Source: a virus
Direction: 5' to 3' (one strand)
Length of the DNA: 20,404 nucleotides
Virus record (IMG/VR): IMGVR_UViG_3300034375_000640
Location: 1 to 20,404 of that record
Part shown: one piece after another, positions 3,610 to 18,697 of the stretch
Position numbering within the stretch: position 1 is the first letter of the stretch
How the letters are laid out: the number at the start of each line of letters is the position of its first letter
Program-made: the position numbers and the translations under genes
Notes under the pieces: generated by a model
What the model was told of the DNA's origin: nothing
Database searches by the model: none
Seen by the model: the letters and a program-made list of their open reading frames with translations, nothing else

Positions 3610-3994
3610 AATCGACTAACTCCTTAAGTGTATCTATATTATACCATAAAATCTCGTGTTTGTCACACCATTCAGCCATAGTAAGTTTGGTACTTTTACT
3701 CACTTTCTGGTTAGGCTTCATCAGCACAAAGATGAGTTCTTGCGTCCACGGTAATGACCTAGAGATCGCTTTATACTTTTGCGTATCTCCTGCTCTAAAG
3801 TATCCTTTGCACTCAATGAGGTAAGCTCTGTCTCCTCTTTCGTACACAAAGTCTGGGGTGTACTTCCGTGGGATGATGTAGTCCACTTGGAACGGCTCGT
3901 AGCTAAAGCCAAATGGTTGTAACTGCTTTGCGACATCTTTTTCAAACTCCGACCTAAAGTTTCCTAGCTTAGACTTCCGCGACCTTCGGCTCAT
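3584..3994 (-). CDS. endonuclease I-like Holliday-junction resolvase (T7 gp3 family)
   Basis: Cuts branched DNA such as four-way junctions. In T7 it resolves replication intermediates before packaging and helps degrade host DNA. The 136-residue length is close to the 149 of T7 gp3. The catalytic PD-(D/E)XK residues are visible: an acidic residue in the first helix (Glu16 or Glu18), Asp48 in YTPDF, then Glu61 and Lys63 in LIECKG, matching T7 E20/D55/E65/K67 in order and spacing. The N-terminus is very basic, as expected for DNA binding. ATG follows GAGG by six bases. It overlaps the 3' end of the upstream nuclease gene by 26 bases and carries the internal promoter candidate in its own 3' part. 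Confidence 0.92.
   Translation of the reverse strand: MSRRSRKSKLGNFRSEFEKDVAKQLQPFGFSYEPFQVDYIIPRKYTPDFVYERGDRAYLIECKGYFRAGDTQKYKAISRSLPWTQELIFVLMKPNQKVSKSTKLTMAEWCDKHEILWYNIDTLKELVDYVSDTRRN
3638..3666 (-). promoter_or_regulatory. sigma-70 promoter candidate inside the endonuclease I gene
   Basis: On the minus strand there is GTGACA, a 17-base spacer, then TATAAT. The spacer ends in TGG, giving an extended -10. The block TATGGTATAATATA is shared with the late promoters. A transcript would start near 3631 and cover the 58-residue gene, DUF3310, the hypothetical gene and the reductase. The -10 is perfect and the -35 matches 5 of 6. It lies in coding sequence, so it remains a prediction. Confidence 0.6.
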
Positions 3995-4823
3995 TGACCA
4001 CCTCTGTTAAGTACCTTGGACCACTTGAGTAGATGAATGTTCTTAGTCCGGGCCAGCAGGTATGCTTGTAGGGACAATAGGAACAACCGACTGCGAGCTT
4101 TTGATTTCCACTTTTGCCATCTGGTACGGTTTCGTGGCAGTGCTCTGGTGCTTCCGGTTGCTCTACGAGCTTTTTTACGCGGTTGATGTGCTCCTCTATG
4201 TCGTAAGAGATCTTGTCGTACACGGGAGCCTGTGTGTCCTCAGAGTCGTACATGAGGTACGTCAGGTGTCCGTTCTGTTTGTCCATCGCTAACCAGCCGA
4301 ACTTAGTTTCTCCTTCTGAATGTGCGTATCCTTTAATTTGAGCAACGTATCCAAACGGATCATCAAAAGCCAGACTTCCGTCCTTGAATTTCTTAAACCC
4401 AAAAGTGGAGACACTCTTAACATCAGTGACAACACCGTCAATTTTGCAGTCCATAGACCCTGTAACACCCGCAACTTCACACTGCTTCTGTTCATCTGTC
4501 ACCTCGTGTCCTGATAGTCTGGTGAGAAACAACAGCATCTCTTCGATCAGATGCCCGTACATAAACTTGACGTATGTGTTAGGTGTCATCTCCTCTTGTA
4601 CGTCTGGGTTGTTGACCACGTTCCACAGGTAACGATCATCACGCCCGATGTTAGACATACGCAGCTTACGTCCGTCACGCTTCTCTGTGAACAGGTTAGA
4701 CATGAGGCGCTTGCAGTTCTCACCAAAGCGGTCTATCTCGTCTATCAGGTCAACACCTTCTGCTGGCTGCTTCTCAGAAACCACCTTGTAGATATCGTCT
4801 ACCAGTGAGTAAAGTTTGTTCAT
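3969..4823 (-). CDS. Cas4/RecB-like PD-(D/E)XK nuclease with predicted 4Fe-4S cluster
   Basis: Predicted DNA exonuclease of the Cas4/AddB-type Fe-S nuclease group, 284 residues. The nuclease core is visible: GHLIEE (90-95), Asp125 in GSMDCKID, Asp134-Val-Lys136, and a QxxxY motif (Gln162, Tyr166). Four cysteines fit the family's iron-sulphur arrangement, Cys37 far upstream and the trio Cys247-x2-Cys250-x5-Cys256. The start chosen overlaps the previous stop as ATGA, with AAGGA six bases upstream. An in-frame ATG eight codons earlier lies inside the upstream gene and is less likely. It sits between polymerase and endonuclease I, about where T7-like phages keep their 5'-3' exonuclease, so a role in recombination or host DNA breakdown is reasonable. 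Confidence 0.88.
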   Translation of the reverse strand: MNKLYSLVDDIYKVVSEKQPAEGVDLIDEIDRFGENCKRLMSNLFTEKRDGRKLRMSNIGRDDRYLWNVVNNPDVQEEMTPNTYVKFMYGHLIEEMLLFLTRLSGHEVTDEQKQCEVAGVTGSMDCKIDGVVTDVKSVSTFGFKKFKDGSLAFDDPFGYVAQIKGYAHSEGETKFGWLAMDKQNGHLTYLMYDSEDTQAPVYDKISYDIEEHINRVKKLVEQPEAPEHCHETVPDGKSGNQKLAVGCSYCPYKHTCWPGLRTFIYSSGPRYLTEVVNEPKVAEV

Positions 4824-5119
4824 GCTGTGTCCTTGTGGTTTATCCATCGTAGTTTGCGAGTCTTAGGGTGAAAACCTAGAAATCTTACGTTGTATTTAAC
4901 TTGTTGTTCTGTCCTAGTTTGCTTTATCTGTCCCGTTTTGTACTTATTGTGTAGTGTTTTTACGTCAACTAAAGTACACTCTCCGTCTTTCCAAGCCACC
5001 ATGTCTACAAATCCGGTTGAACCGGGATTGAGGTAAACTTCGTAACCGTTATCCCACAACCATGTAACCGCATAAAACTCTGCTATATCACCTACTCTAC
5101 TTGGATCCATTAGTTTCAT
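4820..5119 (-). CDS. small PD-(D/E)XK nuclease-like protein
   Basis: A 99-residue protein with the minimal nuclease fold pattern: Glu14 in the first helix, Asp39 in GFVDMVAW and Asp52-Val-Lys54 in LVDVKT. The helix-strand order and the motif D-x(12)-D-x-K fit small phage or archaeal resolvase-like PD-(D/E)XK proteins. The substrate is unknown. I took the ATG that overlaps the polymerase stop (TAATG) with GGAG eight bases before it. A frame extending to 5173 would add 18 basic residues from inside the polymerase gene without a better ribosome site. Two further nucleases of the same superfamily follow directly downstream. Confidence 0.8.
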   Translation of the reverse strand: MKLMDPSRVGDIAEFYAVTWLWDNGYEVYLNPGSTGFVDMVAWKDGECTLVDVKTLHNKYKTGQIKQTRTEQQVKYNVRFLGFHPKTRKLRWINHKDTA

Positions 5120-6765
5120 TAGTGTGTCTCCGACCATGTTTGTCCGACCTTGTACTCTCCGTCGAGTGGACATCTGAGTTCAAAAGAAATGCCAGCCGCC
5201 TTGATGCACTCGACTGCGAGCCAGCCGAACTTCTCTGCTTGTTCTGAAGCCACCTCCGATTGTATCTCGTCATGTACGTTCCCTATAAACTTGTAGTCAA
5301 TGTTGTGCTGAGTAGCGTAGTCATCCAGAAGCACCAGAGCCTTCTTCATAATGATAGCACCAGCCGCCTGTAGTAACGTGTTCAGTGCACTATGTTCTGA
5401 CCTGACCCAGAGCTTTCGTCCGTCGAGGCCAGTGAGGTAACCCTTCCTAGACGCCTGTCCAACTCGCTCTCGTAGAGTTTCAAGAGAAGGTGTATTTCGT
5501 AGAAAGCGTGTCCTAAGCGCATACCCATCTCTTGCAGTTCCTCCGATGATACTTCCAATCTTTGCGTCTCCTGCTCCGTAGAGGAAAGCGTAGATGAAAG
5601 TCTTTGCCTGAGGTCTTGTTGCAAGTCCAGCAGCAGTTTGATTTCTGGTGTGAATATCGTCTCTAAGCAAGACATTTGTAAACTCCTCGTCGCCCATGTA
5701 GTGAGCTAACATACGTAGCTCTAGTCCACTGGCGTCTACTCCCACCAGCTTGCGTCCCTCTGGTACAATCCAACAGTCACGACACTCCTTGCCAAACTGA
5801 GAGTTGACTGACGGAACCTGTGCCATGTTAGGGTTCTGGTGTGTCATCCGTCCTGTGATAGCACCGTTGGTTGTAACTCTCCCGTGTACCCTACCGTCGT
5901 CCTCAACGTGTTCTATCCAAGAGGATACTTGTGCGTAACGCTTCTGCAGAAGAAGGTACTCAAGGACGAGAACAGCTTCCGGTATATGTTTGTTTTCCTC
6001 AAGCGTCCTCTCGTCCACCTGTGGCCTACCAGACGGTGTGAGTTCCGACCAAACAGCACCCTTAGCTTCAAGTCTTTCTGCCACCTGTTGCCTTGAGCCG
6101 GGATTGAATACCGTAACTTTATCCTTAAGGCGCTTGCCTGTTTTCTCAGAGATCCTTTCTTCAACAATCGGCGGGAACACCCTCTGGAGTTCTTCCTCGA
6201 TTTCATACATACGCTCCTTGAACCTAGCGCACAGCGTGTGGCACAGACGTTGATCCAGTAGCCACCCGTTACGCTCCTGTTCCTGTATGATCCACTGCAC
6301 ACTGTGTTCTAGGTCAATGCTGGCCTGTGAGAAACCCTCTAGCTCTACCCGTAGCCTGTTGTACACCGCCTCAGTCAACTCTACGTCACGTATGCAGTAG
6401 TCAATCATCTGTGGTGTAAGCTGCGACCAATCCTCGTGGTCACCCTTTGCAAACCCTAGGATGTTTCCCCAGTTACGCAACGAGTGTCCACCAGACCTGC
6501 TTGGGTCAGCCAGCCTAGACATTACTAGAGTGTCAGCGACCATGCTCCTGTCAAAAGTAAAATTCCAAATACGCTCGACCACAGGAACATCAAAGCCAAT
6601 TCCGTTGTGGAATATGAATTTAGCTGGCGCTTTACGCGATACATACGCCTTGAAATCTGCTTCATTACAAATCACCTCGCTCTCTAAGTTGTGTCGGCAG
6701 ACAGCACACCAGATGGTAGTGGCGTCTAAACCGTCAGTTTCAATGTCACAAAAGACGATGTTCAA
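5119..6765 (-). CDS. family A DNA polymerase with 3'-5' exonuclease domain (T7-like)
   Basis: Replicative polymerase, 548 residues, shorter than the 704 of T7. The proofreading domain shows Exo I Asp7/Glu9 (CDIETDG), Exo II around Asn54-Asp59 and Exo III Tyr123-x3-Asp127. Polymerase motif A is VDASGLELR (Asp344). Motif B is RPQAKTFIYAFLYG (Arg384, Lys388, Tyr392, Tyr396). Motif C is VHDE (Asp499). Tyr392 aligns with E. coli Pol I Phe762 and T7 Tyr526, a residue state common in virulent phages. The start is TTG, overlapping the primase-helicase stop, with GGAG eight bases upstream. It must be this early because Exo I lies only six residues in. It lies between the primase-helicase and nuclease genes in the replication operon. 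Confidence 0.96.
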   Translation of the reverse strand: MNIVFCDIETDGLDATTIWCAVCRHNLESEVICNEADFKAYVSRKAPAKFIFHNGIGFDVPVVERIWNFTFDRSMVADTLVMSRLADPSRSGGHSLRNWGNILGFAKGDHEDWSQLTPQMIDYCIRDVELTEAVYNRLRVELEGFSQASIDLEHSVQWIIQEQERNGWLLDQRLCHTLCARFKERMYEIEEELQRVFPPIVEERISEKTGKRLKDKVTVFNPGSRQQVAERLEAKGAVWSELTPSGRPQVDERTLEENKHIPEAVLVLEYLLLQKRYAQVSSWIEHVEDDGRVHGRVTTNGAITGRMTHQNPNMAQVPSVNSQFGKECRDCWIVPEGRKLVGVDASGLELRMLAHYMGDEEFTNVLLRDDIHTRNQTAAGLATRPQAKTFIYAFLYGAGDAKIGSIIGGTARDGYALRTRFLRNTPSLETLRERVGQASRKGYLTGLDGRKLWVRSEHSALNTLLQAAGAIIMKKALVLLDDYATQHNIDYKFIGNVHDEIQSEVASEQAEKFGWLAVECIKAAGISFELRCPLDGEYKVGQTWSETH

Positions 6766-11835: not shown

Positions 11836-12063
11836 TTAAGCAAACTCTGCCATAGCTTGATTCATCACCACGCGCATCTCTTCCTGATAGTCTTGGTGGC
11901 GGCTGTAGAAGTCCTCAGAGATTCGCCCTGAGTCAATCAGGCTGGTCACCTGTTCTTCTGTGGCGTAGTAGAGCGCACCCCAGTCGCCGTTGTTTAAGTC
12001 TGTTGCGATGCTTTCGAGTGTTGCTTTTTTGCCTTCGCTAATTCGCTGTTCTGTTTTGCTCAT
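11836..12063 (-). CDS. first gene of the early minus-strand block (75 residues)
   Basis: Acidic, helical 75-residue protein (MSKTEQRISEGKKATLESIA at the start, with a later EEMRVVMNQAMAEF helix). I do not recognise it. ATG follows AAGGA at nine bases. It lies closest to the central intergenic region, so it is probably the first early gene expressed. Its promoter is not clear, because no good sigma-70 match is visible just upstream. Confidence 0.75.
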   Translation of the reverse strand: MSKTEQRISEGKKATLESIATDLNNGDWGALYYATEEQVTSLIDSGRISEDFYSRHQDYQEEMRVVMNQAMAEFA

Positions 12064-12269
12064 GTCTCTGCATCCTTTTGGGGGTGGCGTGTGTCCCCTG
12101 TCGCCATGTGTGTATATTGAGGCCTAGCGAGGCAGAACACAAGTGTAAATATTACCACGTTTGGACTATTGACAGCCTAGCACGTTGTATGCTTGCGATT
12201 AGCCAGAGGGTCCTACCACGGCTCACACACTCGTGTCTACGTAAATATTCACAAGTTACAGCTCCCGAT

Positions 12270-12439
12270 GTTGGCATGAGTTTTGCCTATGCAATATCTG
12301 TGCCAACTTTGGGGGCCTCTCGTGTTGGCACGAGTCTTGCATTAGCAATAAGTGTGCCAATGTTGGTGGCCTCTTGTGTTGGCACGAGTTTTGCATTAGC
12401 AAGATCCATGCCAACTCTGGGGTGCCCCTTGTGTTGACA
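12270..12439. repeat. 54-bp tandem repeat array, each full unit able to form a hairpin
   Basis: Full units start at 12270, 12324 and 12378, and a degenerate half unit starts at 12433, so the period is 54, 54, 55. Each full unit carries a 38-base inverted repeat: GTTGGCA, about 24 bases, TGCCAAC (the last base is T in unit 2). Nested inside is TTGC-4 bases-GCAA. The 16-base linkers (GGCCTCTCGT-like) are also similar, so whole units were duplicated. Outer arms are conserved better than the interior. Confidence 0.85.
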
Positions 12440-12644
12440 CGGGGGGAGGGGGTTGACTCGTGTTGATTATAGTTGTAGCCTCCCAAGTTCACAAGAGAGT
12501 AAATTTAGGAAAAAAATAGGCACTATTCATGTTACTTATGTCCTCCTCAACACCCTGTTTTACCTCGTGTTTACCCACGGGTGAGCCAAAAGTACTAAAT
12601 ACGTTGCTGCTTATTACCATTTGTGATAGATTTACGTAAAATAA

Positions 12645-12683
12645 TGCTTGACTTTTGAGTAAAAATATGGTAAAATATAGAGT
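12645..12683 (+). promoter_or_regulatory. late promoter copy 1 (sigma-70 type)
   Basis: TTGACT at 12648-12653, a 17-base spacer ending TGG (extended -10), and TAAAAT at 12671-12676. It drives the terminase, lysis and head genes after a leader of about 135 bases. The 39-base block matches copy 2 at 18659 in all but four positions. Confidence 0.8.
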
Positions 12684-12820
12684 AGATATTAGGATGTATT
12701 TAGTTACACAGGTGCGGGACTAAAGTTTGAGTGTTGTATAGTTCGTATAGATCCCCTCATCTGTTACAACCTAAGCAGGGGACTCATGCGAACTAGCGTT
12801 AAACACAAGGAAACAGGAGA

Positions 12821-13276
12821 ATGTCAGGAGATAGCGTCAGCGGTGCTGAACATGACACCCTAGAAGCCCAAGTAGCAGCTAGAAAGGAGATAAATCTCAA
12901 GAAAAGACCCAGAGGTAGGCCTAAGAAAAAAGAGATCAAAGCTAAAACAGCAGGATCCAGAGGCAAAGTAGGTAGACCTAAGGGTGATGCTACAATAATT
13001 AACGAGTACAAGGCTAGAATGTTAGCCTCTCCTAAGTCCGTTAAGGTACTAGAGACCATATTTGAGGCTGCTCTGGACAACGATCACAAGAATCAGGCAG
13101 CAGCGTGGAAACTAGTGATGGACAGGATACTCCCCGTAGGTGCATTTGAAAAAGAGGTTATAAAAGACAATGGAAGAAGTGCGATTCAGATTAACATCAC
13201 TGGTGTCGGAAGCACAACAATTTCTGATGGCGGTGAAAGCGGAGACGTTATCGAAGGTGAGTACTCTGAAGAGTAG
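12821..13276 (+). CDS. terminase small subunit candidate with AT-hook-like motifs
   Basis: A 151-residue DNA-binding protein, probably the small terminase that recognises phage DNA for packaging. The evidence is its position as the first late gene, upstream of the large terminase, and its make-up. A basic N-terminus contains RPRGRPKKK (28-36, AT-hook core RGRP) and a second GRPKG (50-54). A helical central part (IFEAALDNDHKNQAAAWKLV) suits oligomerisation, and the tail is acidic. Small terminases diverge strongly, so homology could not be judged by eye; a regulatory DNA-binding protein is the alternative. ATG has AAGGA nine bases upstream. Confidence 0.6.
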   Translation: MSGDSVSGAEHDTLEAQVAARKEINLKKRPRGRPKKKEIKAKTAGSRGKVGRPKGDATIINEYKARMLASPKSVKVLETIFEAALDNDHKNQAAAWKLVMDRILPVGAFEKEVIKDNGRSAIQINITGVGSTTISDGGESGDVIEGEYSEE

Positions 13277-18516: not shown

Positions 18517-18658
18517 AGGACTATACGCCAACATCCACGCCAAACGTAAGCGCATCAAGGCTGGATCAGGTGAGAAGATGCGTAAGCCGGGAGCAAAAGG
18601 TGCTCCTACAGCAGAAGCCTTCAAAAAAGCACGAAAAACTACCAAAAAACGTAAATAG
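18506..18658 (+). CDS. small basic phage protein (50 residues), GTG start
   Basis: GTG-started gene whose product begins PSKGLYANIHAKRKRIKAGS and continues GEKMRKPGAKGAPTAEAFKK. I know closely similar 50-60 residue proteins as recurrent hypotheticals in marine and enteric phages; function unknown. Net charge is strongly positive, with a helical basic C-terminus. It ends just before the second late promoter, closing the portal transcription segment. Confidence 0.7.
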   Translation: MPSKGLYANIHAKRKRIKAGSGEKMRKPGAKGAPTAEAFKKARKTTKKRK

Positions 18659-18697
18659 TGCTTGACTTTTGCGTAAAAGTATGGTATAATATACAGT
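18659..18697 (+). promoter_or_regulatory. late promoter copy 2 (sigma-70 type, extended -10)
   Basis: TTGACT at 18662-18667, a 17-base spacer ending TGG, and a perfect TATAAT at 18685-18690. It begins at the last stop codon of the basic-protein group and drives the scaffold and capsid segment. Nearly identical to copy 1 at 12645, and stronger by consensus. Confidence 0.85.

Follow-up and report, generated by a model that had tools for sequence, protein, structure and literature searches.

The window analysed here, i.e. the whole 20,404-nt stretch of DNA, derives from a source record representing a 20.4-kb virus fragment of a podovirus-like marine phage. As indicated by the ORF list and annotation, the genes are arranged in two divergent blocks, separated by a 757-bp non-coding control region (12064..12820). 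The leftward early block encodes a primase-helicase, PolA, an SSB-like protein, an exonuclease and a ribonucleotide reductase, and its first ORF (75 aa) occupies positions 11836..12063 on the minus strand. The rightward late block encodes a lysis peptidase, terminase and portal protein. It begins with a conserved ORF (151 aa; 12821..13276, plus strand) that occupies the position where a small terminase subunit gene is usually found, and that gave no family match on annotation.

The control region contains the strongest tandem repeat of the window (TRF period 54, 3.2 copies, 12269..12441, score 218). A repeat search placed the 54-nt copies at 12269, 12323 and 12377, with a short fourth piece spaced at 55 nt, which confirms both the 54-bp tandem array reported in a preliminary description of this DNA and its location between divergent early and late genes. 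All three units carry outer arms (TTGGCAY/RTGCCAA) around an inner TTGC/GCAA pair, as had been claimed. The conservation ascribed to the outer arms holds for these bases, but not for the seventh pair, which is T-G in unit 1 and a C-A mismatch in unit 3. The fourth piece, previously regarded as a half unit, is degenerate: the sequence GTGTTGACACG (12431..12441, plus strand) has lost the GG, and is also found in L094, a close relative without the array. It belongs to a conserved flank.

Several other features were identified nearby. A consensus scan alone indicated a candidate leftward (early) sigma-70 promoter, TTGTGA-17-TATAAT (12466..12494, minus strand), whose -10 region is kept in several relatives; it lies upstream of the array and would read through it. 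A promoter-like block (TTGACT-17-TAAAAT) is present in two copies of 88% identity (12634-12683 and 18649-18697), and Pseudoalteromonas phage Slicky01 contains two occurrences of a block resembling it (87%). The repeated motif GTAAATATTAC/GTGAATATTAC (12145-12161 and 12241-12257) was found in most relatives compared at the control region, and the block GAGGGTCCTAC-ACTGG-TCACACACT (12209-12235) is kept in the relatives compared regardless of array type. Upstream of the first late gene there is a conserved 5′-leader hairpin, GTTCGTATAGATCCCCT...AGGGGACTCATGCGAAC (12741-12793), with no Rfam match. It was found in 36 of 72 regions, in 17 distinct versions, each of which folds into a long stem; some of the differences between them appear compensatory (CCCCT/AGGGG to CCCTT/AAGGG).

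Inspection of the arms revealed that each has the form TTGGCAY-N5-TTGC, with the GG-N10-GC spacing of a sigma-54 -24/-12 element, the consensus of which for sigma-54 (RpoN) is TGGCACG-N4-TTGC (PMC3224663). The exact pattern TGGCAYNNNNNTTGC (TGGCAYN5TTGC), searched on both strands of the 20.4-kb window, gave six matches, which are the six arms, three per direction. The extended form TGGCAYR-N4-TTGC is present in all six, the final base being W in five and C in one. A weight matrix was then trained on 42 intergenic sense E. coli sigma-54 sites identified by ChIP-seq (PMC4591121, Table 1). The six best scores in the window, both strands included, were again those of the six arms (21.7, 21.4, 20.1, 19.9, 19.0 and 16.7 bits), followed by a next best of 15.3 bits. 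The E. coli sites themselves reached a leave-one-out median of 14.8 and a maximum of 21.0 bits, so that two arms outscore all 42 of them. Six sites, all within the array, reached at least 16.7 bits, whereas matrices with permuted columns yielded 0.055 such sites on average, which excludes chance.

The six elements form three convergent pairs, with the facing TTGC (-12) elements 4 nt apart. In unit 1, the rightward element TTGGCATGAGTTTTGCC (12271..12287, plus strand) is the sixth best in the window (16.7 bits) and faces the leftward TTGGCACAGATATTGCA (12290..12306, minus strand; 19.9 bits). In unit 2, the rightward TTGGCACGAGTCTTGCA (12325..12341, plus strand; 21.4 bits, above all E. coli sites) faces TTGGCACACTTATTGCT (12344..12360, minus strand; 20.1 bits). 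Unit 3 combines the best element of the window, TTGGCACGAGTTTTGCA (12379..12395, plus strand; 21.7 bits, also above all E. coli sites), with TTGGCATGGATCTTGCT (12398..12414, minus strand; 19.0 bits). Since the six arms head the matrix ranking, each "hairpin" is read as two complete predicted sigma-54 sites placed face to face, and the supposed inner TTGC/GCAA stem is, by its sequence, a pair of -12 elements. The array thus very probably comprises six predicted binding sites for the host sigma-54 RNA polymerase holoenzyme. The earlier suggestion of a palindromic protein site was right in kind, although each arm appears to be a complete site, and the protein is most likely the host sigma-54 polymerase.

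The distribution of such sites was examined in relatives of the phage retrieved from IMG/VR (80 by terminase and 80 by primase). Allowing at most one mismatch with GG-N10-GC kept, the control regions of 66 distinct relatives contain 109 sigma-54-type sites, compared to 3.75 expected from dinucleotide shuffles. Column-by-column conservation among 84 leftward sites reproduces the sigma-54 consensus, with T before TGG, C/T and then G after CA, T before TTGC and A/T after it. Within the family, 98 sites point leftward and 41 rightward, the leftward ones fit the E. coli matrix better (p = 0.025), and unpartnered sites are almost all leftward, i.e. directed toward the early genes. A more distant relative, L330 (same broad group by terminase and portal families), has eight sites in tandem, all leftward, at the position of the array.

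In some relatives the slot of the array is occupied by up to 11 tandem DnaA boxes (TGTGGATAACC, period 11). Among 65 regions, 15 contain sigma-54 sites only, 15 DnaA boxes only, 5 both and 30 neither. On the terminase tree the sigma-54 state changed at least 13 times and the DnaA state 14 times, counts that recombination may inflate. Relatives L071 (ten DnaA boxes) and L072 (three sigma-54 sites) have identical terminases. Judged from these sequences, the array clearly behaves as an exchangeable cassette. The DnaA boxes in the slot are perfect tandem copies at 11-bp spacing in L035, L043, L058, L060-L062, L069 and L071, and are followed there by a G-rich and an AT-rich stretch, resembling a bacterial origin.

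Gene-content correlation across the early block was used to look for a phage DNA-binding protein cognate to the array. No early-block gene tracking the array across lineages was found, the top gene clusters being private to the 47-bp lineage, which speaks against a phage-encoded cognate protein. Moreover, no RpoN or sigma-54-activator (EBP) domain was found in the 26-30 phage records searched, so the binder would be host-encoded.

Similar arrangements were detected in other viral contigs. The palindrome pattern and the tandem-pair pattern each occurred in at least 120 stretches, compared to 45 for a permuted-palindrome control, and no exact sigma-54 site was present in the loci of that control. 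Within 38 viral records, sigma-54 matches reached 26 per record, whereas a reversed-pattern control gave 0-1 per strand. The sites are locally clustered: for example, 16 of 18 fall in about 3 kb of a 94-kb contig, and among the matches listed, other viral contigs hold 6-21 sites within a few kb. L330, L376 and L353 carry 6-8 sites in tandem, repeated every 25-28 bp; L376 differs from the window phage's group in its portal and terminase families. Clusters of 12-21 exact sites in 6-14 kb were observed in L365 (147-kb contig), L360 (94-kb contig), L206 and L210.

A set of 79 viral loci for which no relationship to the window phage was detected provided 353 sites, of which 109 lie inside ORFs, compared to 215 expected. 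Orientation toward an ORF start within 200 nt was no more frequent for the real sites (52) than for flipped ones (54). Avoidance of ORFs with no orientation preference is unlike the behavior of promoters; given that the loci were chosen by motif and the ORF calls were simple, it amounts to a strong indication rather than proof.

BLASTN comparison of the array with phage isolates gave only weak matches (E ~2), which pointed to T5-like Vibrio phages. A further match, to phiCB2047-B, was rejected as due to chance, its genome containing no exact sigma-54 site. T5-like Vibrio phages have exact sigma-54 sites close to the A1/A2 genes, at the pre-early end of the genome: 6 of 6 in D419 (103.2-107.2 kb of 114 kb), 7 of 7 in D51 (106.2-110.4 kb), 6 of 7 in VCPH (116.9-119.8 kb) and 2 of 2 in JSF10 (91.6-94.4 kb). 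VCPH and D419 each contain a convergent pair, with 33 and 32 nt, respectively, between the TGG starts, compared to 33 nt in the window. The same clusters contain DnaA boxes (TTATCCACA), comprising all five of those in D419, both in JSF10 and most of those in D51 and VCPH. The genomes of T5, T4, T7, lambda and CHOED contain no exact sigma-54 site, and KVP40 has two isolated ones. T5 carries DnaA boxes in its first-step-transfer region. The pre-early region of the V. cholerae phage JSF10 (L422) also includes a 1.7-kb non-coding stretch (3671-5403) in which several short-repeat families accompany DnaA boxes and a sigma-54 site.

The holoenzyme bound at sigma-54 sites in E. coli is transcriptionally inactive as long as no activator acts on it (PMC4591121), and the Kd of holoenzyme-DNA binding is approximately 3 nM (PMC7064336). 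Titration (decoy) sites in bacterial genomes have been discussed for sigma-54 and PhoB (PMC4591121, PMC10294691). Since the sigma-54 holoenzyme cannot open DNA without an activator ATPase, its binding to the array would be tight yet silent. The face-to-face pairs are also poorly placed as two working promoters, because each predicted start lies inside the partner site. Silent binding combined with this geometry makes capture of host sigma-54 polymerase at the six sites the most likely role of the array, an overall explanation whose chances may be put at somewhat better than even. The 4-nt distance between TTGC elements, the more than 200 nt to the first early start and the position downstream of the candidate sigma-70 promoter suit holding polymerase over firing. 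As judged from these features, the more specific proposal that the polymerase is held in a silent closed form, so that the array serves the early control region either as a decoy or as a roadblock, is plausible at slightly less than even chances.

Capture would begin soon after entry of the phage DNA and would increase as its copy number rises. It could starve the host sigma-54 regulon (e.g. envelope-stress, nitrogen and motility genes) and might also, or instead, block transcription through the early leader. Where DnaA boxes fill this slot, DnaA would be affected in the same manner. Bonocora et al. observed intragenic sigma-54 sites in E. coli without a roadblock effect. Two further observations run counter to capture: six sites per genome make a small sponge before replication, and the leftward bias of the family, together with the better leftward fit, counts against a pure decoy, which needs no orientation.

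It is this bias that keeps alive the main rival explanation, in which the leftward sites function as early promoters that depend on sigma-54. Early gene expression would then be turned on by a host activator sensing the infection or nutrient state, with the rightward sites as weaker by-products or brakes. The distance of 220-330 nt from the array to the early block downstream of it, and the eight tandem sites of L330, which all point leftward, would fit such a role, as would the nearly uniform direction of the unpartnered sites. Against this, the sites of each pair converge with overlapping footprints, and the first early ORF starts approximately 220 nt past the predicted start of the nearest leftward site, giving a leader of more than 200 nt, compared to mostly 20-100 nt in E. 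coli. A sigma-70-like early promoter is predicted upstream of the array by the consensus scan, many relatives lack any sigma-54 site, and the sites of unrelated loci show no orientation preference. Sigma-54-gated early transcription is therefore considered a rather unlikely, though serious, alternative to capture.

A replication origin, in which the units would be iterons for a phage initiator and the DnaA boxes of relatives another version of the same device, appears improbable. The check by GC skew proposed in the preliminary description did place the cumulative minimum (~11.5-12.5 kb) at the array, and the perfect tandem DnaA boxes of relatives adjoin G-rich and AT-rich stretches. The direction of the genes changes at the same point, so that skew cannot separate an origin from transcription divergence. 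Furthermore, the window contains no TTATCCACA box, the motif is the sigma-54 consensus, no cognate initiator was found among the early genes, and the free exchange of sigma-54 and DnaA arrays between near-identical phages conflicts with such an initiator.

By analogy with T5, whose injection stop signal region contains DnaA boxes and inverted repeats and has been proposed to bind host components (PMC13250531), proteins on DnaA boxes or sigma-54 sites might halt or pace genome entry. The pre-early regions of T5-like Vibrio phages hold both types of site, but the window phage resembles podoviruses and carries its array where the early and late blocks diverge, and both types are missing in many relatives; an entry signal is accordingly given little credence.

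The preliminary description had also proposed selection on hairpin structure. In an alignment of 10 distinct 36-nt units, none of 11 pairs was changed on both sides, and the observed covariation was lower than in any of 500 shuffles. Among the outer pairs a single one varies, and it is broken in two sequences; one inner pair is broken in four. Right-arm half-units without a left partner occur in L014, L089, L046, L050, L053, L056, L066, L072 and others, and the loop varies in length (4 nt in the 54-bp family, 6 nt in one unit of L118 and 7 nt in most units of the 47-bp family). No Rfam family matched the array at gathering score; a weak match to MIR8565, far below this threshold, was rejected as a palindrome artefact. 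The favorable RNA folding score (z = -6.9) is of the kind that any array of palindromes would yield. Selection for hairpin shape, whether of a structured RNA or of a DNA cruciform, is thus a most improbable explanation, the hairpin reading being already largely refuted by these observations.

Takeover of host transcription by phages is usually credited to proteins, and in enterics sigma-54 runs the phage-shock envelope response. The clusters found in the early control regions of phages both related and unrelated to this one, often beside DnaA sites, suggest capture of host regulators by phage DNA. It may tentatively be proposed that diverse lytic phages have independently evolved arrays of sigma-54 and DnaA sites in their earliest-acting control regions, thereby capturing host regulators by DNA rather than protein. 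With similar reserve, the palindrome array of the window could be viewed as one compact form of such arrays. If correct, this would represent a protein-free way for phages to disarm or read host regulation, and would tie sigma-54, through the envelope response, to infection. Dense consensus arrays are present in early regions of unrelated phages, cultured T5-like Vibrio phages included. They suggest a concrete role, amenable to testing, for the DnaA boxes and inverted repeats that have long been noted in the T5 first-step-transfer region. No description of phage sigma-54 arrays was found in the open-access literature, which does not prove novelty.

The array can be compared with several known systems. 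With iteron-type origins it shares tandem (here predicted) protein-binding repeats near a skew minimum, but its repeats are inverted pairs matching sigma-54 sites, and no cognate initiator gene was found. The T5 first-step-transfer region with its injection stop signal is similar as an early-entering non-coding segment that contains DnaA boxes together with inverted repeats, but T5 lacks an exact sigma-54 site and the window phage is not T5-like. The sigma-54 -24/-12 promoter element has the same consensus and GG-N10-GC spacing, and the arms score at the top of, or above, the E. coli sites; the array differs in being phage-borne, clustered in face-to-face pairs and far from a start codon, and the sites of unrelated phages are not oriented to genes. 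The bacterial decoy sites discussed for sigma-54 and PhoB are, as here, consensus sites without promoter placement, silently bound in the bacterial case. Relative to these, titration by the array is a predicted function, and the sites are phage-borne, dense and exchanged with DnaA boxes.
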